A DNA stretch of 64,000 bases, taken from the NCBI RefSeq assembly GCF_037996825.1, contig NZ_JBBNAC010000001.1, positions 744,001-808,000 on the forward strand, read 5' to 3'. The notes beneath the pieces are model-generated. The model made no database searches. It saw only the letters and a list, made by a program, of their open reading frames with translations, and had not been told where the DNA came from. Below are positions 51,095 to 64,000 of this stretch, in pieces (the stretch's first letter is position 1; each line of letters opens with the position of its first letter). The translations under genes and the position numbers were made by a program. The stretch comes from Bdellovibrio sp. BCCA. GTDB lineage: Bacteria; Bdellovibrionota; Bdellovibrionia; Bdellovibrionales; Bdellovibrionaceae.

Positions 51095-51625
51095 TTGTCT
51101 ATTCTTTTCCACAATGATTCAGTGGGATTAGAAATATCAAAATTGAAAAATATCAAGATGTTGGTCCTCGATGTGGACGGCGTCTTAACGGACACGCGTA
51201 TTTGGTTTGATGGCAAAGAATGGCGTCGATTCTTTTCTATTCGTGACGGCGTGGGCATCAAACGTCTTATTGATTCTGGCTATAAAATTGCTGTGATTAC
51301 GGGAACTAAGGCCGAAGACATTCGCACGCGTGTGAAAAATCTCGGAATTCAATATCTCTATGAAGGCGCTCTCGACAAAGAGCCCTCTTTCTTACAACTG
51401 CAACAGGAATCCGGAGTAAAGCCTGAAGAGATGGCTTACATCGGTGATGACATTTTTGACGTTCCTCTTTTGCAGACGGTGGCCTTTGGCGCGACTGTGC
51501 CAGAAGCCGTTGATGAAGTTCTTGAAATTGCTGATTACGTGACTCGCAGACCCGGAGGTATGGGCGCTGTGAGAGAAGTTTGTGATTACATCTATAAATA
51601 TGGGGCTTTTTCCTCAGGTAGGTAA
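51095..51625 (+). CDS. kdsC: KDO 8-phosphate phosphatase
   Basis: 176 aa HAD enzyme that removes phosphate from KDO-8-phosphate: motif I VLDVDGVLTDTR, motif II TGTKAED and motif III YIGDDIFDVPLL. The short, cap-less length is typical of the tetrameric KdsC. TTG at 51095 is used for the start, but a GTG at 51122 is in frame and no clear ribosome binding site separates them. It directly precedes the Glt/Agl operon (3 bases between stop and next ATG), so it is probably the head of that transcript. Confidence 0.88.
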   Translation: MSILFHNDSVGLEISKLKNIKMLVLDVDGVLTDTRIWFDGKEWRRFFSIRDGVGIKRLIDSGYKIAVITGTKAEDIRTRVKNLGIQYLYEGALDKEPSFLQLQQESGVKPEEMAYIGDDIFDVPLLQTVAFGATVPEAVDEVLEIADYVTRRPGGMGAVREVCDYIYKYGAFSSGR

Positions 51626-51628
51626 TTC

Positions 51629-52366
51629 ATGCTAAAAAATGGTTTCAAAGCCGTTATGATTATTGTTCTTGCCTTGTTGCTACACAAGGCGGCTTTTGCG
51701 GCTTCAGAGGTTGTCGAACTTCCTCCTGAAGAGTTGGCGCAAGAATCGGTTCTTCCGGTTTTTGATAAGCCAGTGAGCGTGAAAAACAGAAATGTGGTCA
51801 CGGCGGGAAAATTTGACGTCGACGTTTTTTACGGTTACGCGATGACGGAACCTATTGCGAACGTCAGCAAGCTTGGTTTGGGCGTATACTACAACTGGAG
51901 TGAAGAGCACGCAATTGGTTTGTTCTTTGCTAACAACATGTCAGGTCTTTCTGATTATGCAAAACAAATCGAAAAAACGCCAGCCACTCACTTGGATTTA
52001 TCTAAAGCTCCAATGCCGAAAAATACCATTATGGCTGATTACAACTTAAAAGCTTTCTACGGAAAGATGAGTATCACGAAGTCTTTGGTGTTTAATACGG
52101 TTCTTTACGGCTCAGGTTCTTTGGGTGTTGTTCAGTATGAACACAAAACTTATCCGGCTGTTGCTGTGGGTTTAGGTCAAAAATTTTACTTTAACAGAGA
52201 TTGGGCTTTGCGCTTTGATTTGCGTCTTTATGCGAATCAAGGTCCGGTGCCTTTTCTAGGTGGAAGTAAAATGCACGAAGGAACGCCAAGACCGTCATTC
52301 GATGAATTCCAAGAGAGAGTTCTTTACACGACCAATCTCGACATCGGTCTTTCGTATCTATTTTAA
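51629..52366 (+). CDS. Outer-membrane beta-barrel protein, GltA/GltB type
   Basis: 245 aa with a signal peptide (FKAVMIIVLALLLHKAAFA, about 1-25) and a beta-barrel-type sequence ending in the aromatic residue typical of outer-membrane proteins (GLSYLF). Repeated alternate-residue strands (FDVDVFYGYAM, LGLGVYYNWSEEHAIGLFF, YNLKAFYGKMSI) support about 8-10 strands. It belongs to the myxo-type barrel family (OMP_b-brl) found with gliding genes; in Myxococcus two such barrels, GltA and GltB, form the outer-membrane part of the Glt machine. First gene of the operon after kdsC. Confidence 0.75.
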   Translation: MLKNGFKAVMIIVLALLLHKAAFAASEVVELPPEELAQESVLPVFDKPVSVKNRNVVTAGKFDVDVFYGYAMTEPIANVSKLGLGVYYNWSEEHAIGLFFANNMSGLSDYAKQIEKTPATHLDLSKAPMPKNTIMADYNLKAFYGKMSITKSLVFNTVLYGSGSLGVVQYEHKTYPAVAVGLGQKFYFNRDWALRFDLRLYANQGPVPFLGGSKMHEGTPRPSFDEFQERVLYTTNLDIGLSYLF

Positions 52367-52379
52367 GGGGAGCTAAGGC

Positions 52380-53180
52380 ATGTTTATGAAAAAACAAACA
52401 TACATTTTTCTGATGCTGATGATGCTGGCTCCTTTGGGAGTGAAAGCACAATCAGAAACGGGTGATGATTTAGACGTGATTGAGTTGGAACTGGATAAAG
52501 CCGCTCCGGCAAAACAAGCTCCGGCGAATTCAGCTCCGAGCTACCAGGAGTCAACGGCACCCAGAGACAACACACTCACAGATTTCTCCGGTCTTGGAAC
52601 TTTGGCTCCGTTTAAAGAAATTTCTGTCATTCAAAAAAGATTCTTGCCAAAAACAGGTCGCTTCCAACTTTTTGGGGGTGCGACGGTCCTTACCAACAAT
52701 CCGTTCTTTAATACGATCGGTGGCGTGGCTAAGGCGAGTTACTTCTTAAGTGAGTCTTGGGGCGTGGAGCTGAACTATTTCGGTCTTACGACGTCTGAAA
52801 GACAAACAACCGAAGAACTTCGCGACATTCAGGGTGTGAGCACAGAAAACTTAGTTTATCCAAAATCTTTCATCGGTCTTGATCTGATGTACGTTCCTAT
52901 CTACGGAAAGATGACTTGGTTTAACGAAAAGATCGTACCTTTTGATCTTTATTTTTCTGCGGGATACGGAACAACGAATACGCAAGCTGGAGAGAACGCA
53001 GGAACACTGCACTTAGCAACAGGCCAGATTTTCGCTTTGACGAAGGCCTATGCCGTTCGTTGGGATTTTAGCTGGAACTTCTTTAACGCTAAAGGTATCG
53101 ACGGTTCACAAAATTCATTCAACAACCTCTTCCTCACTGTGGGTATGAGTTGGTTCTTTCCGGAGGCTAGTTACCGATGA
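52380..53180 (+). CDS. Outer-membrane beta-barrel protein 2, GltA/GltB type
   Basis: 266 aa with signal peptide (YIFLMLMMLAPLGVKAQ), a Pro/Ala-rich linker (about 30-65), and a barrel with aromatic-rich strands (FQLFGGATVLTNNPFFNTIG, SWGVELNYFGLTTSE, FLTVGMSWFF). The pair with 51629-52366 matches the GltA/GltB doublet in myxobacteria. GGGGAG precedes the start. Its stop overlaps the start of the next gene (ATGA), so coupling is likely. Confidence 0.75.
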   Translation: MFMKKQTYIFLMLMMLAPLGVKAQSETGDDLDVIELELDKAAPAKQAPANSAPSYQESTAPRDNTLTDFSGLGTLAPFKEISVIQKRFLPKTGRFQLFGGATVLTNNPFFNTIGGVAKASYFLSESWGVELNYFGLTTSERQTTEELRDIQGVSTENLVYPKSFIGLDLMYVPIYGKMTWFNEKIVPFDLYFSAGYGTTNTQAGENAGTLHLATGQIFALTKAYAVRWDFSWNFFNAKGIDGSQNSFNNLFLTVGMSWFFPEASYR

Positions 53181-54751
53181 GAAAATTATTACTACTCCTG
53201 ATAGCCACAAGTTTTACACTGCCGATTGCAAGTTCAGCCCAGCGAAAAACGTTGAAGCCTGCAAGAAAAGCAGCTCCAGTGTACAACAGCAATACTCGTG
53301 AAGCGACTCTGCGCAACCAGTTGAGCAACGCTCTTCGTATGGCGCAAAGCGGGCAATATGAATCCGCTGCGAATAATCTATTCTCACTCGCACGCCGTCC
53401 TGAATTAGCGGCAGATCGTCCACAGATTAAGTACATCTTGGGAACGATGTTGATTGAGCTCAAACTTTATCAAACAGCGGCTTTCCAGTTTGTCGATGTC
53501 ATCCGTTCAAAACATCCTAAATATTCCAAACTCGCGATCGAAAAACTTTCGATTGTGGCGGACACTTTAGGGGATGACACGATCTTGAATTACGCGATTT
53601 CTCGCGTGGATCTCAATGATTTCCCAAGTAACTTGAAAGACATGATCCACTTCCGTTTGGGAGAAATCAAACTTCGCAACAGAGATTTCTCCGGCGCCGC
53701 CGATCTTTTTGGTCGCGTGAGTTACGGAAGCAGCTATTACTTCCAAGCTCTTTACAACAAGGGTCTTGCGGAGCTTGAAGCGAATCAACCATCTTTGGCG
53801 ATTGGAACTTTCAATAAAATGTTGGACGCTCGTCGCAAAGCTCCGGTGACGGACACAAACAGAGTGGCGGCGCAAATGGGCTTGGCTCGTGCGCTTTACC
53901 AAAAACAAGATTGGGAGCAAGCGATTGAAGCCTATTCTCAGGTCCCGCGCGACACGCTCATGTGGCATGACGCGGTTTTTGAATCTAGCTGGGCCATGCT
54001 TCGCGCGGCCCGTTTCCGTTCAGCCCTCAGTAATTTCCAAACTCTCCACTCGGCATATTATGAAGACTTTTATATGCCGGAGAGTTTACTTCTGCGCGCC
54101 ATCGTTTACCTCTACATCTGTAAGTACGATGAAATGGAAAAGGTCCTAAGCTTGTTTGAAAAAACATACGGACCTGTGCGCACTAAAATCGGTGACTTCT
54201 TAAAATCGACAAACGAAGCCGGTGCTTTTTACTCAGAAATTGAAAAAGCTCACTTCATGAAAACCACGGACAAGAACGCCAACCTGCGTTTGCCTTACAT
54301 CGTTTTGCGCAATGTGCTCGATCAAGGGGACGTGAAGCGTTCTATGCACTATATCGAAAAACTCACTCAAGAGCGTGCGCGCGTGGAATCGAATTCTGCG
54401 TTCCGTGCTTCTCCATTGGGTCAATACTCTTTGAAAATTCTCGCAAACCGCAGCCGCAATGCGAAGTTTGCTGTGGGCGATATGGTGAAAGCGCATTTAC
54501 AAAACATGCGCGTGGAATTGCGTGATCTTTACGAGCAAGCCGGATTCATCCGTTACGAAATGATCACGGGCCGTAAAGAAAGCATTAAAAAGAAAATGGC
54601 TGGGAAAGATATCGGAACTGAACAAATCGACGAAAAAGTGGATCGTCAGTTCTACATCCAAAACGGTTACGAATACTATCCGTTCCAGGGAGAATACTGG
54701 TTGGATGAGGTTGGAAACTACCACTATCTTGGCAAACAAAGCTGCGAGTAA
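53177..54751 (+). CDS. gltC: Periplasmic TPR protein, GltC-like
   Basis: 524 aa with a signal peptide (about 1-20) and TPR-like helices over about 45-360 (LRMAQSGQYESAANNLF, AIGTFNKMLDARRK, ALYQKQDWEQAIEAYS). The C-terminal 150 residues are not TPR and end in a charged region. In Myxococcus GltC pairs with GltA and GltB, and here it also follows the two barrels. Assignment is by order and family. It is periplasmic. Confidence 0.65.
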   Translation: MRKLLLLLIATSFTLPIASSAQRKTLKPARKAAPVYNSNTREATLRNQLSNALRMAQSGQYESAANNLFSLARRPELAADRPQIKYILGTMLIELKLYQTAAFQFVDVIRSKHPKYSKLAIEKLSIVADTLGDDTILNYAISRVDLNDFPSNLKDMIHFRLGEIKLRNRDFSGAADLFGRVSYGSSYYFQALYNKGLAELEANQPSLAIGTFNKMLDARRKAPVTDTNRVAAQMGLARALYQKQDWEQAIEAYSQVPRDTLMWHDAVFESSWAMLRAARFRSALSNFQTLHSAYYEDFYMPESLLLRAIVYLYICKYDEMEKVLSLFEKTYGPVRTKIGDFLKSTNEAGAFYSEIEKAHFMKTTDKNANLRLPYIVLRNVLDQGDVKRSMHYIEKLTQERARVESNSAFRASPLGQYSLKILANRSRNAKFAVGDMVKAHLQNMRVELRDLYEQAGFIRYEMITGRKESIKKKMAGKDIGTEQIDEKVDRQFYIQNGYEYYPFQGEYWLDEVGNYHYLGKQSCE

Positions 54752-54754
54752 AAT

Positions 54755-57700
54755 ATGAAATTCAACAGGCATCAACTTCTTGTTTCAAGTCTCCTGACCG
54801 CTCTTTGTGTAAGCCCGGTGTTTGCACAAGCAAAGGTTGTTAAAACGACGACGAAGACTGTTAAGAAAAAGACGGTCGGTGAACTGTTGTCGCAAGCAAA
54901 CGAAGGCAGCCGCGGTGGACGTGTGCAAATGTCTAAAACGGACACGTCATTACCTTCTTCGAACTTAGGATTTAAAGACGACGTTAAAGGTTACAACTTA
55001 GAGTCGGTGAAACCACCACGCTCTTCTGAAATCATGCAAAGAGAAGCGGGCGGGGAGCAGGCGGAGTATGAAAGAGTTTTAGATCAACAGATCCGCGAAC
55101 TTTATAAGCTCACGCAAAAATTTAAAACAAGTCCGAACCGTGGTGAGTTGTGGCTTCGTTTGGCCGAGCTTTATGTAGAAAAAGCAAGCCTCATTGATGG
55201 TCGCAGACAAGATGAATACGATGCGAAACTGCGTGCCTTCCAGGCGGGAAAAACAAAGGTAAAACCGAAATTAGATACAGCGGAAGCTCGCGAATACAAT
55301 AAAAAGGCCGTGCAGCTTTACGAGTGGTTCCAACGTGATTTCCCTCGTGACGAAAAAATGAGCCAGGCACTTTTCTTCCTTGGTTATAACTATTTTGAGT
55401 TAGGCGAAGTGAAAAAAGGAGCTCAGTACTATGAGCAGCTCACCAAAGGGTATCCAAATTCTCCTTTCGTGGGTGAAGCCCACTTTGCCTTGGCCGAATA
55501 CTATTTTGAAAATGAAAAATGGGCGCAAGCCTATAAAGAATATTCTTATCTGATTAAAGAAAAGAAACACCGCCTGCACACGTTTGCTCTTTATAAAGGC
55601 GCATGGTGCTTATTCCGTTTAGGAAAGATCCAACAGGCGATGAATTATCTTGAGTTCATCATTAGAACCGGTAAATCCGAGACAGGTGAACAACTTGCGG
55701 GACGCAAAACGGTCAACCGAACACGTCTTGAGGGCGAAGCATTGCGCGATATCGTCGTGTTCTATGCTGAAGGTGGCGATCCGGCAAGAGCCGCTTCTTA
55801 CTTTAAAAACCTTGTGGGCGATAACACGGGTTCTTACTTAGAGCGTTTGGCTTATCAGTATTCAGACCGCGGAAACAAAGACGCTTCCAGAGAAGTCTTT
55901 AAGCTTTTGATTTCGCAAAATCCAAATTCTCCGAAGGCGTTTGAGTACCAATACCAGATCGTTCAAAACTATTACTATGCTAAGAACACGTCTCGTTTTA
56001 AAAACGAACTCTATAGCTGGGTGAAAGACTACGATTCGAGCAGTGCTTGGTATGCTGCCAATAAAAATAACAAAGACCTGATTGAGAATTCGTACAAACT
56101 TCGTGAAACGACGTTGCGCAATTACGTTTTGCAGCAGCATCAGACGGCACAAAACTCTCGCGCGCCTTATTCTCAAGCGCAGGCTAATGACGGATATCAA
56201 CTTTATCTCAAAGAATTTCCAGATTCAGCAACGGCTTCTGATATGCACTTCTATTACGGCGAGTTGCTCTATGATATGGGTAAATACGATGAAGCGGCGA
56301 TGCAGTACAAATGGGTTGTGGATAATGCTCCTCAATCGAAATTCTATGGCAAGTCCGCGCAGAACTTGATCTTGGCGGTGGAAAGAAGCATTCCGTCTGA
56401 TCAAGAAATGCAAAAGCGCGTAGGAAACTCTTTGGATCCTGTGCCTTTGGAGCCAAAAGTGGATCGCTTTATTAAAGCGGGCCAATGGTATGTGGAAAAG
56501 TTCCCAACGTCTGAAAAAGCGGTGGAAATCAAATTCCGCATGGGTCGTTTGTACTACCAAAGCAATCACTTTGACGAAGCGACAAAACATTTTCGCGAAA
56601 TCGTGCAACAGTATCCAAATACAAAATATGCGGAATATTCTGCGAATCTGCTTTTGGATATCTACAACTTAAGAAAAGACTATGTGGGATTGGAAAAAAC
56701 GGGAGCCGAGCTCTTGGCTGTCCCGTCCATCGCCTCTTCAAAAGCCGGATCTGATATTCGCGGTGTGATGGAAAAAGCGTCCTTCAAACGCGGTCAGGAT
56801 TTGGAGCTGGAGAAAAAATACGCAGACTCGGCTCAGGTTTACGATGCCTTTGCAAAACAGAATCCGAAATCAAGTCTCGCGATCACAGCTTTGTTTAATG
56901 CAGGTGTGAACTATGAGCGAGCGGGTATGAATGGACCTTCGATTCAAGCATATCAAGGTGTGCTTGCGTCTAAAGATCCATCTGCGGATAAGCTAAAACC
57001 AAAAGTGCGCCGTCTGCTTGCAAAACAATATCAAGACTCGGCTCAGTTTGAAGAAGCGGCGAAGCTTTACAAACAATCTGCTCAAGAAAATCCGACGGAC
57101 CCATTGGCTCCGAACTTGATTTACAACGCGGCTGTTTTATATGAAGCGCTTGGAAAGTCTGACGAGGCGATTCGTTCGTACACGGAATTTACAAAGCTCA
57201 ATAAAAAACACTCCGACAATATTGAAGCCGTTTACAGCATGGCCCAAATCCATCGCAAAGCCGGTCAAAACGGTGCCGCGATTGCGCGTTACACAGAATA
57301 TGTGGAAGGTGGCGGTCGTGATCAGGAAAAAGTGGTGGAAAGTGCTTACTGGGTGAGTGAGCTTTACGGCCGTCAAAGAGCGCTCACAAAATCCAATGAA
57401 TGGGCGCAAAAAACTTTGGCGATCCAAAGGCGTTTTGCACCAAATAAAAAAGGTGTAGGTGCTTCTTACGCAGCGAAATTGAAATTAGCCGAGGCCATGG
57501 GGACTTTCAAAGAAATGAAAGCGATTTCGTTCCCTAAAGACCCGAACAAACAAAAAGCGGCTGCTGATAAAAAAGTCGCCTTGTTGACAAAACTTACAAG
57601 CGAACTTGCGGATGTTATCAAGTACGACAGTGCTGAAGAAATTGTCAGTTCATTGAGTGTCTTGGGTGAAGCAAATCAGAACATGGCTCAGGCAATTTTA

Positions 57701-57958
57701 AATGCGCCACTTCCTCCAGGCTTGAACGCGGAAGAAACAAAACAATATAAAGCGGGTGTTGAAAAGTTCGCCGAACCATTCAATACCAAAGTCCGAGAAA
57801 GTTTCAAACTTGCGGTCGACCGTGGGTTGGAATTGGAAGTCTACAACGACGGATTTAAAACGGCTTACGAGTATATGAATAAGCTTGATCCGAAAACTTA
57901 CTACAACGGTGGTGAGATTGGTTCGGATATCCGCTTAGTGAATTGGATAGGTCAATAA
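54755..57958 (+). CDS. gltD: Large periplasmic TPR protein, GltD-like
   Basis: 1067 aa. Signal peptide (HQLLVSSLLTALCVSPVFAQ) then about a dozen TPR units spread over residues 115-930 (ELWLRLAELYVEKASL, ALFFLGYNYFELGEVKKG, EIKFRMGRLYYQSNHFDEA, IYNAAVLYEALGKSDEAIRS). This size and composition match the periplasmic TPR protein of the Glt gliding complex. The start lies 4 bases after the GltC-like stop and its stop overlaps the next start (TAATG), so the operon is tightly coupled. Likely a periplasmic scaffold. Confidence 0.72.
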   Translation: MKFNRHQLLVSSLLTALCVSPVFAQAKVVKTTTKTVKKKTVGELLSQANEGSRGGRVQMSKTDTSLPSSNLGFKDDVKGYNLESVKPPRSSEIMQREAGGEQAEYERVLDQQIRELYKLTQKFKTSPNRGELWLRLAELYVEKASLIDGRRQDEYDAKLRAFQAGKTKVKPKLDTAEAREYNKKAVQLYEWFQRDFPRDEKMSQALFFLGYNYFELGEVKKGAQYYEQLTKGYPNSPFVGEAHFALAEYYFENEKWAQAYKEYSYLIKEKKHRLHTFALYKGAWCLFRLGKIQQAMNYLEFIIRTGKSETGEQLAGRKTVNRTRLEGEALRDIVVFYAEGGDPARAASYFKNLVGDNTGSYLERLAYQYSDRGNKDASREVFKLLISQNPNSPKAFEYQYQIVQNYYYAKNTSRFKNELYSWVKDYDSSSAWYAANKNNKDLIENSYKLRETTLRNYVLQQHQTAQNSRAPYSQAQANDGYQLYLKEFPDSATASDMHFYYGELLYDMGKYDEAAMQYKWVVDNAPQSKFYGKSAQNLILAVERSIPSDQEMQKRVGNSLDPVPLEPKVDRFIKAGQWYVEKFPTSEKAVEIKFRMGRLYYQSNHFDEATKHFREIVQQYPNTKYAEYSANLLLDIYNLRKDYVGLEKTGAELLAVPSIASSKAGSDIRGVMEKASFKRGQDLELEKKYADSAQVYDAFAKQNPKSSLAITALFNAGVNYERAGMNGPSIQAYQGVLASKDPSADKLKPKVRRLLAKQYQDSAQFEEAAKLYKQSAQENPTDPLAPNLIYNAAVLYEALGKSDEAIRSYTEFTKLNKKHSDNIEAVYSMAQIHRKAGQNGAAIARYTEYVEGGGRDQEKVVESAYWVSELYGRQRALTKSNEWAQKTLAIQRRFAPNKKGVGASYAAKLKLAEAMGTFKEMKAISFPKDPNKQKAAADKKVALLTKLTSELADVIKYDSAEEIVSSLSVLGEANQNMAQAILNAPLPPGLNAEETKQYKAGVEKFAEPFNTKVRESFKLAVDRGLELEVYNDGFKTAYEYMNKLDPKTYYNGGEIGSDIRLVNWIGQ

Positions 57959-58809
57959 TGAAGAAGATCATTGTTTTACTTCCTGTTTTAACATTGGCAG
58001 CTTGTGCGACTCAGTCTGTGAATGAAACCGAAGCTCCGGCCCCTGCGGCGCCAACGGTGACCGAGGCTCCTGTTGTGCGTAAGGAAGAGCCGAAGCCCGT
58101 TGTTGTCGAGGAACCGGTGCGCCCGCAAATTCCGACAACACCGTCGCAATACGCGGCTTTAAATGAAGCGATCAAGTCCCAGAGCGATGAAAAGATCTAT
58201 CAAGCTTCAACGCAGATCTTGGCGCAATCATCTAACGACGCTAAAGCATTGAATGCTTTAGCGATGTACCACTATAAGCGTGGACGTTATGATCTTTGTC
58301 GTTACCTTTTAAGCAAGGCGATCGCTGGTAATCCAAGAATGGCAGAGCTTTACTCAAACATGGGTATTGTTCAGCTTGCGCAGAATGAAAAGCGCGATGC
58401 GATCAAATCTTTCCGTAAAGCTTTGGATATCAATAACGACGAAGCTGTAGCGGCAGCGAACCTTGGTGCCATTTACGTTCAAGAAAAAGATTATTCGAAA
58501 GCACAAGTCGTTCTTGAAACCGCTTACAGACGCGGAGTGAGAGATCCGAGAGTTCTCAACAACTACGCCATCGCTCTTACAGCTAACCGCAAATATGAAA
58601 AAGCGGAAGATTTATATAAGACGATTTTGAAAGATTCTGCGAGCAACAAAGACGCTCTTTATAATTATGCAACACTGTTGGTCGATAATATGGGTAAGTA
58701 CCAAGAGGGTTTGGAAGTAATTAACAGACTAAAGTTTGTAGGTGGGCCTGCAGATACTCGCAATCGAATTATTGCTTTGGAAAATAAGGCGAAAGCTGGT
58801 TTAAAATAG
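57958..58809 (+). CDS. gltE: TPR lipoprotein, GltE/AglT-like
   Basis: 283 aa with lipobox LAAC (cysteine near residue 15), a Pro/Glu-rich linker (about 20-55) and about five TPRs (LNALAMYHYKRGRYDLCRYL, AELYSNMGIVQLAQNEKRDA, AVAAANLGAIYVQEKDYSKA). In Myxococcus the corresponding TPR lipoprotein is GltE/AglT. The start at 57958 overlaps the GltD-like stop; an in-frame TTG at 57943 is less likely. Outer-membrane anchoring from the periplasmic side is the probable site. Confidence 0.75.
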   Translation: MKKIIVLLPVLTLAACATQSVNETEAPAPAAPTVTEAPVVRKEEPKPVVVEEPVRPQIPTTPSQYAALNEAIKSQSDEKIYQASTQILAQSSNDAKALNALAMYHYKRGRYDLCRYLLSKAIAGNPRMAELYSNMGIVQLAQNEKRDAIKSFRKALDINNDEAVAAANLGAIYVQEKDYSKAQVVLETAYRRGVRDPRVLNNYAIALTANRKYEKAEDLYKTILKDSASNKDALYNYATLLVDNMGKYQEGLEVINRLKFVGGPADTRNRIIALENKAKAGLK

Positions 58810-58825
58810 AGTGAAGGTGGAAACT

Positions 58826-59134
58826 ATGTTGCGATTCGTTAAACAATTTACAGTCGTGTTTGCAATGATCTGTGCTTTCGAAGTGGCATTTGCGCAGACA
58901 TCGAATCGTACTTCGACGACAACCACCACTACGACAACAACGACGACAAAAAGAAAGGCGACGTTGAACTTTGAAGATGAATTGATCGAAGGTTCAACGC
59001 AAAAGCCGGATCTTTTTTATCTCTTCCAAAAGAAGAATTTTAATTACAGTCGTTTGATTAAGCTTAGACAAAATTTTTTACCCGAGATGAGACGAACATC
59101 AGAAGATATACAGCGGGTTCGGGGTGGTAATTGA
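58826..59134 (+). CDS. Small secreted Thr-rich protein, GltF/CglF candidate
   Basis: 102 aa from ATG 58826 (AAGGTGG 5 bases upstream; GTG at 58811 less likely). Signal peptide (about 1-23, VVFAMICAFEVAFA), then an uninterrupted run of about twelve Thr (near residues 30-42) and a charged C-terminal region. By position between GltE and GltG it may correspond to GltF, but sequence similarity cannot be confirmed. The Thr codons alternate (ACG/ACA/ACC/ACT), so slippage of a pure repeat is unlikely. Periplasmic. Confidence 0.55.
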   Translation: MLRFVKQFTVVFAMICAFEVAFAQTSNRTSTTTTTTTTTTTKRKATLNFEDELIEGSTQKPDLFYLFQKKNFNYSRLIKLRQNFLPEMRRTSEDIQRVRGGN

Positions 59135-61224
59135 GAGCGCCTTTAATATTTAGAATTTTCAAAAACAATCAGCTCGTTGGTGTTAAACAGTTCGATCAAG
59201 ATCAGATCGTGATCGGACATAACGCCGAAGTGCATTTGGATTTAGACTCTGATCAAGTGTCTCCGATCCACTGTCTTATTGAGCTGCGTGATATGGGATA
59301 TTACGTCTGTGATTTGGGTTCCTCTTCAGGAACTTTCAAAAACGGACAAGCCGTTCTTGATGAGATGGTCTCTTCCGGAGACGAAATCGAAATCGGTCCT
59401 TTTAAGATTGCATTCTTCATTGGCGTTCCAAAACCAAAAGCAGCTCCGGGTGCGACTGTTGTTGCAACACCGGCTGTGATGCCAGCTCCGGTTGAAGTGA
59501 AAAAACCAGAGCCTGCACCGATGCCTCCTGCGGCAGTGGTCAAAACAGAAGAGATCAAAGTCGCTCCAACGCCTGTGATCCCTGTTGAACTACCAAAGGT
59601 GGAAGAAAAACCTGTGATCACGGCGGCTCCGGTTCGTCCTGAGATTCGTAAAGATCGCAGTGCTTATAAGAAAGTGAAGAAAGCAAAAACCTTTGCTCCT
59701 CCAAGTGAGGTTCAGGATTTAAGAACGTATCTGAAACCTGGCAAAGGTGCGACCGTTGAAGTGATCGTCGCGTGGAAAGAAAGAATTCTGAACACGTACC
59801 ACTTCAAGGGAAATAAAGCTGTTCGCGTGAACGCAGGTGACGGGCACATTGCTTTGCCTGACGGACTGGTGCCGCGTGGTTATCCATTACTGGACATGTC
59901 AGCGGGATTAAAGGTCAACACGACAGCAGAAATGAACGTGGAACTTGTTTCCTCTGCGGGTATTCAACCTGTGGAAGATCTGGCTCGCAACGGAAAAGCG
60001 CAAAAAGGCGGCCAAGGTTACAACGTTCGTGTTGATCAAAATGAAATGCTTTGCGTGACTTTGCCGGGCGGTAACATCACAGTTTATATCCGCTTTGTAC
60101 CGCAAGCTCCAATGGTGCCAATGCTTCCAATCATGCTCACGGGTTCTGAAATGACGGGCCTTGTGATGTCGTTGGTGCTTGTTGGTTTGTTGGCTCTTTA
60201 TATTTCTGCGACTCTTCCGAAAGATTGGCAGGAAAATAAGCAAGAGGAAGTTCAGCGTATCGCGCAGGTGATTTTCAATAAACCACCTCCAGCAGCGACG
60301 CCGGTGCCGACTCCTCCGCCGCCAACACCGCCTCCTGTGGCGACACCGACGCCGACTCCAACACCTCCACAAAAAGTGGTTGTGGCGGATCAGACGAAGG
60401 AAGCACAGAAAAAGGGCGAAAAAGGTCAGCAATCGCAAAAAGCCCAAGTGGCAGCGCGTGCTAGTGAAGTGGCACCGAAACCAAATGCAAAAGATCGTAC
60501 GAAGAAATTCACATCCACTCGTCAAGGCGGAGCGATCAAGACAGGGCAGACTGCAGGAGCCAATGCTCAGTCTTCGAATAAAGATCTTTCGAAGGTGGGA
60601 CTTTTCAGCGCCTTCGGTGGCGGCGGAAGTCGCGCGAATATCGACAAGGCTTATTCAGGAGCCGGTGAAGTTCTAGGTATGGCCGATAAAGCGACCGGAA
60701 CTGCGGGCTTCAATGAAGACCGTGCTGGTGATGATCTTGGATCTAAATTTAAAGATTCAGGCGCTGGTGGTAAAGGAACTGCGACTCAAGGGATCGCAGG
60801 GATCGGAACTAAAGGCCGTGGATCGGGTCAAGCTGCTTACGGCGCTGCGGATGGTTTTGGTAGCAAGACCACAGTGGCGATCGAAGGCGGTGGTTTTGAA
60901 GAATCCTTCGACGGAACAATTGATAAGGAAGCGATTCGTCGTGTGATCCGTGCGAAGAAGCACGAACTGCAAAGTTGTTATGAGCGTGTGCTCAACACTT
61001 TGGAAAAAGGTGCGAAGCTTGAAGGTAAAATAATTTTAGCATGGGAAATCGTTGAAAAAGGACAAGCGCGTAACGTGAAAGTGAAGAGTTCAACCTTGGG
61101 TAATCCTAAAGTTGAAAACTGCATTCGTGATCGTTTAGCAAGTTGGACTTTCCCGGAACCTCCACCAGGTCTTGTGGCCGAAGTGCAGGCGTATCCGTTT
61201 GTCTTGAACCCGGCTAATAACTAA
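59131..61224 (+). CDS. gltG: FHA/membrane/TonB-like protein, GltG-like (TTG start)
   Basis: 697 aa. Residues 1-100 are a cytoplasmic FHA domain (IHCLIELRD, DLGSSSGTFKNG) in which the usual Arg of the first motif is His (VIGHN). A Pro/Lys linker follows, then a beta-domain (about 195-325), one membrane segment (about 345-365, TGLVMSLVLVGLLALYI), a Pro/Thr-rich periplasmic stretch and Gly-rich region, and a C-terminal AgmX/PglI-type domain (about 590-697, RRVIRAKKHELQSCYERVL). This is the GltG layout: it could carry force from the motor across the wall. TTG start overlaps the previous stop (TTGA). Confidence 0.82.
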   Translation: MRAPLIFRIFKNNQLVGVKQFDQDQIVIGHNAEVHLDLDSDQVSPIHCLIELRDMGYYVCDLGSSSGTFKNGQAVLDEMVSSGDEIEIGPFKIAFFIGVPKPKAAPGATVVATPAVMPAPVEVKKPEPAPMPPAAVVKTEEIKVAPTPVIPVELPKVEEKPVITAAPVRPEIRKDRSAYKKVKKAKTFAPPSEVQDLRTYLKPGKGATVEVIVAWKERILNTYHFKGNKAVRVNAGDGHIALPDGLVPRGYPLLDMSAGLKVNTTAEMNVELVSSAGIQPVEDLARNGKAQKGGQGYNVRVDQNEMLCVTLPGGNITVYIRFVPQAPMVPMLPIMLTGSEMTGLVMSLVLVGLLALYISATLPKDWQENKQEEVQRIAQVIFNKPPPAATPVPTPPPPTPPPVATPTPTPTPPQKVVVADQTKEAQKKGEKGQQSQKAQVAARASEVAPKPNAKDRTKKFTSTRQGGAIKTGQTAGANAQSSNKDLSKVGLFSAFGGGGSRANIDKAYSGAGEVLGMADKATGTAGFNEDRAGDDLGSKFKDSGAGGKGTATQGIAGIGTKGRGSGQAAYGAADGFGSKTTVAIEGGGFEESFDGTIDKEAIRRVIRAKKHELQSCYERVLNTLEKGAKLEGKIILAWEIVEKGQARNVKVKSSTLGNPKVENCIRDRLASWTFPEPPPGLVAEVQAYPFVLNPANN

Positions 61225-61236
61225 GTTGTTTTATAC

Positions 61237-61256
61237 ACTCCGACTCTTGTCGGAGT
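61237..61256 (+). other. Hairpin between the GltG-like and AglR-like genes
   Basis: ACTCCGAC/GTCGGAGT is a perfect 8-bp stem with a TCTT loop, 12 bases after the gltG stop. A T-run begins 7-8 bases later, so it is not a typical terminator. It could stabilise the upstream message or cause partial attenuation. Confidence 0.55.
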
Positions 61257-61283
61257 AGAAAAGTTTTTTTAAGGAGGAGTTCC

Positions 61284-61949
61284 GTGAACCCAACAGTAAC
61301 AGCAGACAACATGAATTTCATCCAGCGCGCTTTCGCTGAAGGTGGTTTCGTCATGTACGTAATCGCAGTCATTGCTATTTTGGCAGTGTTTGTGATCGTA
61401 GAAAGATTGATGAAGCTAAAAAACCTTGCAGTGGATAAAAAAGAATTCACTGATCAAATTTTCAGAATGGTCGTATCTGGTGATTTGCGCCAGGCCATCA
61501 GCTATTGTGATGCGCGCCCAGCTCCTCTGACAAACACGGTAAAAGCAGGTCTTGTTCAAGCTATGAACAAACGCCCTGACGAAGAAGTGCAAGTGGCGAT
61601 GGACGCTGCCGTTATGAGAGAAATGCCAAAAGTAGAAGGTTGGGTTTCCTTCCTTGCTGTGTTTGGTAACGTGGCGGTTCTTGCCGGACTTCTTGGAACG
61701 ATCATCGGTATGATCGGTTCATTCCGCGCGGTGGCAGCAGCTGACCCAGCAACAAAAGCTCTTGAGCTTTCAAAAGGTATCTCACACGCCTTGAACTGTA
61801 CGGCGTTTGGTCTTTTGGTCGCGATCGTATCAATCGTCGCTTACGGTTTGTTCCAACACCGCATTCAAAAAACAGAGAATGAAGTGATTGAAACAAGCAT
61901 GAGTCTTTTGAACCTTGTTGTTGCGAACAGAGAAAAGATTAAAGACTAA
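61284..61949 (+). CDS. aglR: TolQ/ExbB/MotA-type motor subunit, AglR-like (GTG start)
   Basis: 221 aa with three membrane helices (about 23-43, 125-145, 165-190): FVMYVIAVIAILAVFVIVER, VFGNVAVLAGLLGTIIGMIG and HALNCTAFGLLVAIVSIVAY. This is the proton-channel subunit family of TolQ/ExbB. The very strong Shine-Dalgarno AAGGAGGAG lies 4 bases before the GTG. In Myxococcus, AglR with AglQ and AglS forms the proton-driven motor of gliding. The strong start suggests the motor is made in larger amounts than the upstream scaffold. Confidence 0.87.
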   Translation: MNPTVTADNMNFIQRAFAEGGFVMYVIAVIAILAVFVIVERLMKLKNLAVDKKEFTDQIFRMVVSGDLRQAISYCDARPAPLTNTVKAGLVQAMNKRPDEEVQVAMDAAVMREMPKVEGWVSFLAVFGNVAVLAGLLGTIIGMIGSFRAVAAADPATKALELSKGISHALNCTAFGLLVAIVSIVAYGLFQHRIQKTENEVIETSMSLLNLVVANREKIKD

Positions 61950-61972
61950 CAGGCTTAGACTAGAGGTTTTCT

Positions 61973-62449
61973 ATGGCTCACATAGATAGTGGCGATTCCA
62001 GCGGTAGAAAAAAGAATATCGAGCTCAATCTCGTGCCTTTCATCGACTTGATGAGCGTTCTCATCACGTTCTTGTTGATCACTGCCGTATGGACCCAAGT
62101 GTCTATGATTCAGATTGGTAGTTCTCTTTATGGGAAGAAGTCGGACACTCAACCGGCTCCAACGCCTCCACCGAACGCAGATGTTGTTTTGAAAGTGGAT
62201 GTGAAGGAAGCGGGTTACGTATTAACTGTTGGGAGACAAATCATCAGTCTTCCCATGGTGAACGAACAGTTTGACGAAGCCGGCCTGGTCGCTCAGTTGC
62301 AACGTGTGAAACAGCTTTATCCTGAAAAAGTGGATGCGGTTGTCAGCGTTGCCGACGCAATTCCTTATGAACAGCTTATCAAAGCAATGGACAACTGTTT
62401 AACCGCAGGTTTCTCAGCCATTTCCGTTGCAACAGGAGGGCCTAATTAA
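61973..62449 (+). CDS. aglQ: TolR/ExbD-type motor subunit, AglQ-like
   Basis: 158 aa: a basic cytoplasmic start, one membrane helix (about 18-38, LVPFIDLMSVLITFLLITAV) with the conserved proton-carrying Asp, a Pro-rich linker and a small periplasmic domain (about 65-155) with the ExbD fold. Overlaps the next gene by one base (TAATG). It is the first of two TolR homologues; a TolQ with two TolRs matches AglRQS. Confidence 0.85.
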   Translation: MAHIDSGDSSGRKKNIELNLVPFIDLMSVLITFLLITAVWTQVSMIQIGSSLYGKKSDTQPAPTPPPNADVVLKVDVKEAGYVLTVGRQIISLPMVNEQFDEAGLVAQLQRVKQLYPEKVDAVVSVADAIPYEQLIKAMDNCLTAGFSAISVATGGPN

Positions 62450-63039
62450 TGGCCATCTTTAGACCCGGTGAAAGACACCGTTATCACAACATCTTGAGTA
62501 AGCGTAAAGGGAAACGTGACGTTACGGCGTTGCTGTCATTGACGGCGATGGTGGATATGTTCACGGTTCTGGTGATCTTCCTTCTGCAAAACTACAACGC
62601 AACAGGAGAGATTCTTTACATCCCGAAGGAAGTCGTTCTTCCGAAGGCTTCCAGTGTGCGCGAATTAAAACCCGCTCACGTCGTGACGATTTCCAATAAA
62701 GAAATTCTTTTGGATAAAGACACCGTAGCGACATTTGATGAAGTGAAAGCCGCGGAAGATTGGAATATCGCCAATTTGAAAACGCAATTGCAAGAAGCTT
62801 TGGCAAAATCAAAAGCCGAGCAAGAAAGCAAACTGCAGAACAAGATCCGCGACGTGGTTGAATCCACTCGTGGTGAAGTTGAAGAAGATCCTAATGCATG
62901 GAGCAAAGTGACGATCCAAGCCGATAAAGGCGTGGACTTCCTGACTGTCAAAAAAGTTTTGTACACGGTCACTGAGGCAGGCGCTGGTGAAATTAATTTC
63001 GCAGTGACTAAACTTCCTCAAGAATCGACATCAAATTAA
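62449..63039 (+). CDS. aglS: TolR/ExbD-type motor subunit, AglS-like
   Basis: 196 aa with a basic N-terminus (RPGERHRYHNILSKRKGKRD), a membrane helix (about 25-45, LTAMVDMFTVLVIFLLQNYN) containing the conserved Asp, and a periplasmic domain larger than that of the previous gene with a charged helical insertion (about 105-145). Last gene of the motor triplet. The one-base overlap with the upstream stop indicates fixed stoichiometry. Confidence 0.85.
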   Translation: MAIFRPGERHRYHNILSKRKGKRDVTALLSLTAMVDMFTVLVIFLLQNYNATGEILYIPKEVVLPKASSVRELKPAHVVTISNKEILLDKDTVATFDEVKAAEDWNIANLKTQLQEALAKSKAEQESKLQNKIRDVVESTRGEVEEDPNAWSKVTIQADKGVDFLTVKKVLYTVTEAGAGEINFAVTKLPQESTSN

Positions 63040-63097: not shown

Positions 63098-64000
63098 ATG
63101 GCTAAATTTAAGAACCTTATTTTTGTAGCTCTGCTGATCCTTTTGTTTGTAGAGGTTCTTATCGTATTTCCGTCTCGCCTTGAGCACGAAGACGAAGCCG
63201 CTGTTCGCGCCCGCGTTGAAGAACAAGATAAACGAGCTTTAGAAAAAGAAGAACGCATTAAACGCGGTGAAAAAGTGGAAGAGCCTTCCAGTCTTGCTGA
63301 ACAAAAAATGCAAGGCGTTCACTTGGTGGAAAGCCAGCAGGGAAATCGCGATTGGGAATTGTTCGCGGCAACAGCCGAGGGCAATCAAGGGCTTGGCAAC
63401 GTCAAACTCAAAAAAGTGAAAGTTCTTTTCTACAACAAAGAAAAAATTGAATTCACAGTGACCGGCGACACCGGAACGATGGATGCAAAAACCAAAGACC
63501 TGAGTGTTGTCGGCAACGTCGTTACACGCTCAGAAAATGGGTACGTGTTTCAAACGCCGTCGATTTTTTATTCTTCAAGAACGCGCATTATTGAAAGCCC
63601 CGAGCAAGTTTTGATGCAAGGACCGAAAGACACTTCGGGGGCTGGCATGTACTTAAAAGGCAATCGAATGAAAGCCTATGTGGATCAATCCAAAATGACC
63701 ATTTTGGATAAGGTCACAGCGCAGAAGCCGGAAAAAAACGGAAAGAAGTTTGAGATTGTCGCCGACGGTGCAGAATTTAGTGGGAAAAACCGCGAAGCAA
63801 AATTTTTGGGCACGGTTCGCATGAACTACGACAATATGAAACTGGAAGGACCGGAAGCTTCATTCTTGTATAAAGCCGGCGAAGATATTTTAAGTTCGGT
63901 TGCGGTCAAAGGTGGTGTGCGCGTGAGCGATGCGAGTAAGTATGCCACCTCTGAGAGTGTGAACCTGGACCTTTTGTCGAATAAGTACACATTCAAAGGA
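63098..64000 (+). CDS. lptC: LPS export protein LptC, 3' end outside window
   Basis: Open from ATG 63098 for 301 codons to the right edge. The N-terminal membrane anchor (about 5-24, KNLIFVALLILLFVEVLIVF) is followed by a charged stretch and a beta-jellyroll-type periplasmic region (KLKKVKVLFYNKEKIEFTVTG in outline, VGNVVTRSENGYVFQT, SIFYSSRTRIIESPEQV) with the repeated beta-strand pattern of LptC/LptA. It is already longer than ordinary LptC (about 190 aa), so it may carry an extra LptA-like repeat. No strong Shine-Dalgarno is seen. It belongs next to kdsC in many proteobacterial clusters and is separated from it here by the Glt/Agl operon. Confidence 0.82.
   Translation, partial: MAKFKNLIFVALLILLFVEVLIVFPSRLEHEDEAAVRARVEEQDKRALEKEERIKRGEKVEEPSSLAEQKMQGVHLVESQQGNRDWELFAATAEGNQGLGNVKLKKVKVLFYNKEKIEFTVTGDTGTMDAKTKDLSVVGNVVTRSENGYVFQTPSIFYSSRTRIIESPEQVLMQGPKDTSGAGMYLKGNRMKAYVDQSKMTILDKVTAQKPEKNGKKFEIVADGAEFSGKNREAKFLGTVRMNYDNMKLEGPEASFLYKAGEDILSSVAVKGGVRVSDASKYATSESVNLDLLSNKYTFKG

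Follow-up and report, generated by a model that had tools for sequence, protein, structure and literature searches.

An Agl/Glt/Nfs-class gene cluster with its own motor between Kdo and LPS-export genes in Bdellovibrio sp. BCCA

Introduction

The closest described system is the locus Bd0828-0838 of Bdellovibrio bacteriovorus HD100, which contains AglRQS, GltD, E, F, G, C, A and B, ends with aglS, has no GltH, I, J or K, and is one of four core clusters in that genome (Luciano 2011, PMC3169522). Locus content of this kind was thus already described in Bdellovibrio in 2010-2011 (Lambert 2010, PMC2797640; Luciano 2011, PMC3169522). The later of these studies proposed a single-region ancestral core and regarded GltH as recently acquired by myxobacteria (Luciano et al., 2011; PMC3169522).

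The Agl/Glt gliding machine of Myxococcus xanthus is encoded in three clusters (G1, G2 and M1). AglR contacts GltG or NfsG in Myxococcus and the complex is driven by the pmf (Wartel 2013, PMC3858216), while GltA, GltB and GltC form an outer-membrane (OM) subcomplex (Jakobczak 2015, PMC4488436). The Nfs sporulation system of Myxococcus (nfsA-H) is a single region of barrel-barrel-C-D-E-F-G without I, J or K; it borrows AglRQS from elsewhere and has NfsH. Anaeromyxobacter has a contiguous set of barrels and C-D-E-F-G (L190), with its motor on another contig (L193).

The window analysed here is a stretch of 64,000 nucleotides (positions 744001-808000) of the 4.0 Mb genome of Bdellovibrio sp. BCCA. 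Like HD100 Bd0828-0838, it has no GltH or full-length GltJ and its cluster ends with aglS. It shares the homologous GltA/B-type barrels, GltC, D, E, F, G, AglRQS and the channel Asp residues with M. xanthus, but has them in one operon and without GltH and GltJ. Unlike Nfs and Anaeromyxobacter glt, with which its gene order agrees, the window carries its own motor next to the glt genes. From content and order, the cluster is most likely the orthologue of Bd0828-0838.

Results

Layout of the cluster

Ten ORFs, all on the + strand, occupy positions 51629-63039, as in the preliminary description. They and the flanking genes are listed below. Assignments were made with Pfam and NCBIfam HMMs against curated cut-offs.

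51095..51625, +, kdsC, Kdo-8-phosphate phosphatase (TIGR01670, 139.8 bits, cut-off 106.95)
51629..52366, +, barrel 1 (X1), GltA/GltB-type outer-membrane beta-barrel, 245 aa, signal peptide (TIGR04565 OMP_myx_plus, 106.3 bits, cut-off 60)
52380..53180, +, barrel 2 (X2), GltA/GltB-type outer-membrane beta-barrel, 266 aa, signal peptide (TIGR04565, 123.3 bits, cut-off 60)
53177..54751, +, GltC-like periplasmic TPR protein, 524 aa (NF033756 gliding_GltC, E 4e-59, profile positions 115-619, below the equivalog cut-off of 450 bits)
54755..57958, +, GltD-like large periplasmic TPR protein, 1067 aa (TPR families; order-wide GltD profile)
57958..58809, +, GltE-like TPR lipoprotein, 283 aa, lipobox LAAC (NF033758 GltE, E 1.5e-7, weak and below cut-off; position and order-wide profile)
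58811..59134, +, GltF/CglF small secreted protein, 107 aa (NF033764 CglF, E 4e-13, below cut-off)
59131..61224, +, GltG, 697 aa (NF033760, E 9e-72, positions 1-648, below the cut-off of 650; NF033768 myxo_SS_tail, 99.6 bits, cut-off 40; FHA PF00498, 49.9 bits, cut-off 20.7)
61284..61949, +, AglR, TolQ/ExbB/MotA-type proton-channel subunit, 221 aa (PF01618, 93.7 bits, cut-off 22.9; Agl clade in tree)
61973..62449, +, AglQ, TolR/ExbD-type subunit, 158 aa, transmembrane (TM) Asp25 (PF02472, 65.8 bits)
62449..63039, +, AglS, second TolR/ExbD-type subunit, 196 aa, TM Asp36 (PF02472, 53.5 bits)
63098..64000, +, lptC, LptC and LptA-like domains, 340 aa, running past the window end (TIGR04409 LptC, 73 bits, cut-off 38)

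Beyond the window, lptC is followed by lptB (TIGR04406, 367.8 bits, cut-off 240) and then rpoN (sigma-54). The end of kdsC lies 3 bases from the start of barrel 1, and kdsC is probably the first gene of the operon run; the gap from aglS to lptC is 58 bases. The genes had been described as following one another with overlaps of 1-4 bases. The packing is indeed tight, but only four of the nine junctions overlap (X2-gltC by 4, gltD-gltE by 1, gltF-gltG by 4 and aglQ-aglS by 1 bases), the other five being gaps of 1-59 bases (X1-X2 13, gltC-gltD 3, gltE-gltF 1, gltG-aglR 59 and aglR-aglQ 23). GC content is 45.7% in the cluster and 45.4% in the window.

Assignment of the components

Two paralogous OM barrels adjoin GltC, and both pass the OMP_myx_plus cut-off; profile scores did not settle which is GltA and which GltB. 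The order-wide GltD profile gave 405-478 bits against GltD of Anaeromyxobacter, Nfs and Hyalangium. GltG has a cytoplasmic N-terminal FHA domain, one TM segment, a Pro-rich periplasmic arm and a TonB-like C-terminal tail, and its alignment to NF033760 spans the full length yet stays below the equivalog cut-off. The GltC, GltE and CglF of the window likewise score below the curated equivalog cut-offs, and that for GltG was passed in none of 192 Bdellovibrionota genomes. Since these cut-offs appear to be tuned to myxobacterial sequences, the cluster is assigned to the wider Agl/Glt/Nfs class rather than to the gliding equivalogs. At that level the parts named earlier (two barrels, TPR proteins, a small secreted protein, an FHA/TonB-like protein and a TolQ-TolR-TolR motor) hold, with matches to the GltC, GltG, GltE and CglF models. 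A sequence search of the PDB returned FHA domains and TolQ/ExbB only, and no gliding-machine structure.

The phosphopeptide-binding Arg of the FHA domain is replaced by His in the window, so phospho-dependent binding by this GltG appears doubtful. By alignment, the Arg is lost from most GltG of the order Bdellovibrionales and kept in three loci (L061, L062 and L065); Myxococcus GltG has it and NfsG does not.

GltH (NF033755) had no match genome-wide. Full-length GltJ (zinc finger, GYF and tail) was also absent from the genome, where only matches to the C-terminal tail (positions 550-671) and one inside GltG were found. GltI, a 4132-aa TPR protein, visibly matched only GltD, itself a TPR protein, and did so weakly; such TPR matches are non-diagnostic. 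The proposal of a smaller machine without GltH, GltI and GltJ therefore stands for GltH and full-length GltJ, while GltI could not be told apart among TPR proteins. Nor do the missing homologues lie just outside the operon, a possibility raised in the preliminary description: the 13 kb downstream of aglS (L028) held nothing resembling GltH or GltJ, only lptC, lptB, rpoN and genes without Glt similarity.

The motor

AglR and two TolR-like subunits lie side by side. AglQ Asp25 aligns with the channel Asp of Myxococcus M1 AglQ (M. xanthus D28), AglS Asp36 corresponds to an Asp conserved across every motor aligned, and the channel motifs of AglR are conserved. The family-level matches to TolQ and TolR models are also what an ordinary Tol-Pal or TonB-ExbBD energiser merely resembling Agl would give. 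That reading is scarcely credible. All Tol/Exb equivalog cut-offs (TolQ, TolR, ExbB and ExbD) were missed by wide margins, and when AglR was placed in a tree together with other TolQ/ExbB-type proteins of Myxococcota, the Agl-type rows formed a separate group at 100/100; on these two results an unrelated Tol/Exb system, named beforehand as an outcome that would refute the assignment, was rejected. The motor is moreover accompanied by genes of GltC, GltG, CglF and OMP_myx_plus types, and by none for TolA, TolB or Pal.

AglR, AglQ and AglS were concatenated for a motor tree, and topologies were compared by AU p. The tree split into M1 and M2 sides (100/99) with the window on the M1 side, and grouping the window with M2 was rejected (AU p 0.0001). 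Motor profiles agreed: scores against Myxococcota M1-type motors were 206-229 (AglR), 58-106 (AglQ) and 57-121 (AglS), with the lowest AglQ and AglS scores from Sorangium, and all three subunits scored lower against M2-type motors (124-133, 42-60 and 36-53, respectively). This placement on the M1 and not the M2 side is new here. Within the M1 side, grouping with Myxococcota M1 (p 0.34) and with c1077-type motors (p 0.16) were both retained. The window motor alone was thus not confirmed as the M1 orthologue, and whether it is closer to Myxococcus AglRQS than to the paralogous c1077/c1522 motors of the same genome was not resolved. The AU result weakens somewhat the published view that, among the clusters, Bd0828-0838 stands nearest to aglRQS.

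By its gene content the cluster of the window still stands out. Of four motor clusters in the genome, it alone combines a full-length GltG that carries an FHA domain with a pair of barrels and a match to GltE; the other three have no FHA-sized GltG, no GltE match and no second barrel match. In one paralogous cluster (L025:11299-11844, - strand) the AglQ-like subunit is without the channel Asp (PLLAVMV) and its AglS-like partner keeps the Asp. The closest kin of the window genes (~30-43% identity) form a motorless module, barrel-GltC-GltF-barrel, at 2.225-2.229 Mb (L027:7156-10552). This module (2.226 Mb) was considered as a conserved partner and rejected as accessory, a close match to its GltC (53%) being found in one of 59 other genomes of the order.

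Gene order across relatives

Gene order was kept at all 12 loci from other genera of the order (L060-L071), which were picked by GltG match and are not a random sample. The gene cluster is real, and its arrangement is therefore not a matter of chance. Three of these loci (L061, L062 and L065) have no separate GltE and a GltD of ~1280 aa, probably a GltD-GltE fusion. The order barrel-barrel-C-D-E-F-G is identical in the window, in nfs (L176; Hyalangium L189) and in Anaeromyxobacter glt. Both the order-wide conservation and the order common to nfs and Anaeromyxobacter glt are new here.

Myxococcota genomes were collected through an MglA bait. In Myxococcus sp. CA023 the parts were on separate contigs: L216 (G1; partial GltJ, GltI of 4132 aa and GltG of 640 aa), L177 (G2; GltC, GltA and GltB) and L185 (M1). 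The earlier statement that the parts are spread over separate clusters in Myxococcus is borne out by these contigs and by the literature (PMC3169522). Motor and glt genes are neighbours in Bdellovibrionales, in families f14 and f22 (L073-L075 and L077), in f8 (L089) and in Nannocystis (L208). Contiguity is thus widespread, and the separation seen in Myxococcus looks derived; the order shared with nfs and Anaeromyxobacter glt likewise favours an originally contiguous block that was broken up in Myxococcus. Outgroup contigs of Geobacter/Geomonas (L213-L215) gave no matching cluster with these profiles. In families f9 and f20 (L072, L078 and L082) barrel-C-D-E-F-G with an FHA GltG was seen, with no motor genes within the stretch fetched.

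The LPS-gene neighbourhood

lptC lies at most 4 kb downstream at 11 of the 12 other-genus loci, and is also 3' of aglS in a relative from the same genus (L079). At seven of the 12 loci the gene directly upstream is kdsC, and at three it encodes a KpsF/KdsD protein. kdsC adjoins lptC with no glt genes between them in Geobacter (L284) and in family f21 (L283), which points to a probable insertion of the machine into an LPS operon in the order's ancestor. The location would then be derived, however old the gene set. The suggestion that the one-operon form is closer to the ancestral machine, itself already in Luciano et al. (2011), thus gains from the recurrence of the X-X-C-D-E-F-G order in nfs and Anaeromyxobacter but does not extend to the probably derived kdsC-lptC location. 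The derived kds-lpt location, interrupting the kdsC-lptC pairing, is new here.

Discussion

The cluster likely encodes a trans-envelope, pmf-driven machine of the Agl/Glt/Nfs class for surface grip and movement and for holding prey. AglR, AglQ and AglS would form an ion channel-motor that engages GltG, whose arm would extend into the periplasm. GltC, GltD, the lipoprotein GltE and GltF would pass force to the pair of OM barrels, which would thereby shift a surface adhesin or polymer laterally, and the cell may use this movement for gripping and travelling over surfaces and for keeping hold of prey during attachment. What is observed here is the gene content, the class membership, the conservation of the channel Asp residues and the order-wide conservation; the assembly, the force path and a possible use for gliding in this organism are inferred. 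An insertion in Bd0838 (aglS) abolishes prey attachment, killing and rounding, and Bd0836 is also named as required (Duncan 2019, PMC6561027). The Bd0828-0838 locus is up-regulated in host-independent growth and not at 30 minutes of predation (Lambert 2010, PMC2797640). Several points count against this model: the surface-induced, cGAMP-dependent aglQ is bd1480 of another cluster (PMC9140294), the gliding and prey-grip machinery of Bdellovibrio is listed as unidentified in a 2026 review (PMC13104615), trees of GltG and GltC fail to join the cluster to gliding Glt rather than to Nfs, and GltH, GltJ and possibly GltI, which are needed for Myxococcus gliding, are missing.

Some of these points would suit a machine that, like Nfs, transports or positions polymer at the surface, or material linked to LPS, for prey attachment, with gliding left to another cluster of the genome. 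Nfs has the same gene order, also lacks I, J and K, and is powered by AglRQS (PMC3858216); the position between Kdo and LPS-export genes, the attachment failure in the Bd0838 insertion and the surface induction of bd1480 fit as well. We regard this as rather unlikely, because the GltG of the window scores nearer to gliding GltG (151-158 bits with that of Myxococcus and Hyalangium) than to NfsG (76 bits), the GltG and GltC trees give no support for placement with Nfs, and loss of a gliding machine might also give attachment failure. A more specific and speculative proposal takes the placement among Kdo-synthesis and LPS-export genes as a working link: in Bdellovibrionales it would serve to move or pattern surface material linked to LPS for locking onto prey, the machine acting much as Nfs does with spore-coat polymer, and gliding would be a by-product or be run by another cluster. 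This is a long shot.

It is also conceivable, if quite improbable, that aglS insertions lower expression of lptC, lptB and rpoN, and that the published role in predation is one of LPS export and not of the motor. The position of these genes behind aglS, which recurs for lptC in the relative L079, and promoter-like sites that are rarer than chance in the region would allow such polarity. However, insertions ahead of a normally essential LPS-export gene were still recoverable in host-independent cells, and the requirement for Bd0836 argues against it. With lptC only 58 bases behind aglS, possible polarity on LPS export is a practical pitfall for any insertion made at this locus. The locus is a strong sequence candidate for the motor and adhesion machinery of Bdellovibrio, being intact at all 12 loci examined from the other genera.

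Five genomes of family f15, in the same phylum, have a GltH (NF033755) that passes the cut-off; GltH is therefore not confined to Myxococcota, a finding that is also new here. This distribution argues against a recent myxobacterial acquisition of GltH, or for transfer. In two f15 loci (L238 and L239) GltH starts 2-3 bases after gltG. Across L237-L240 the set is D-F-LolA-G-H, with the GltH/CglE homologue directly 3' of gltG and a LolA-like gene before gltG.
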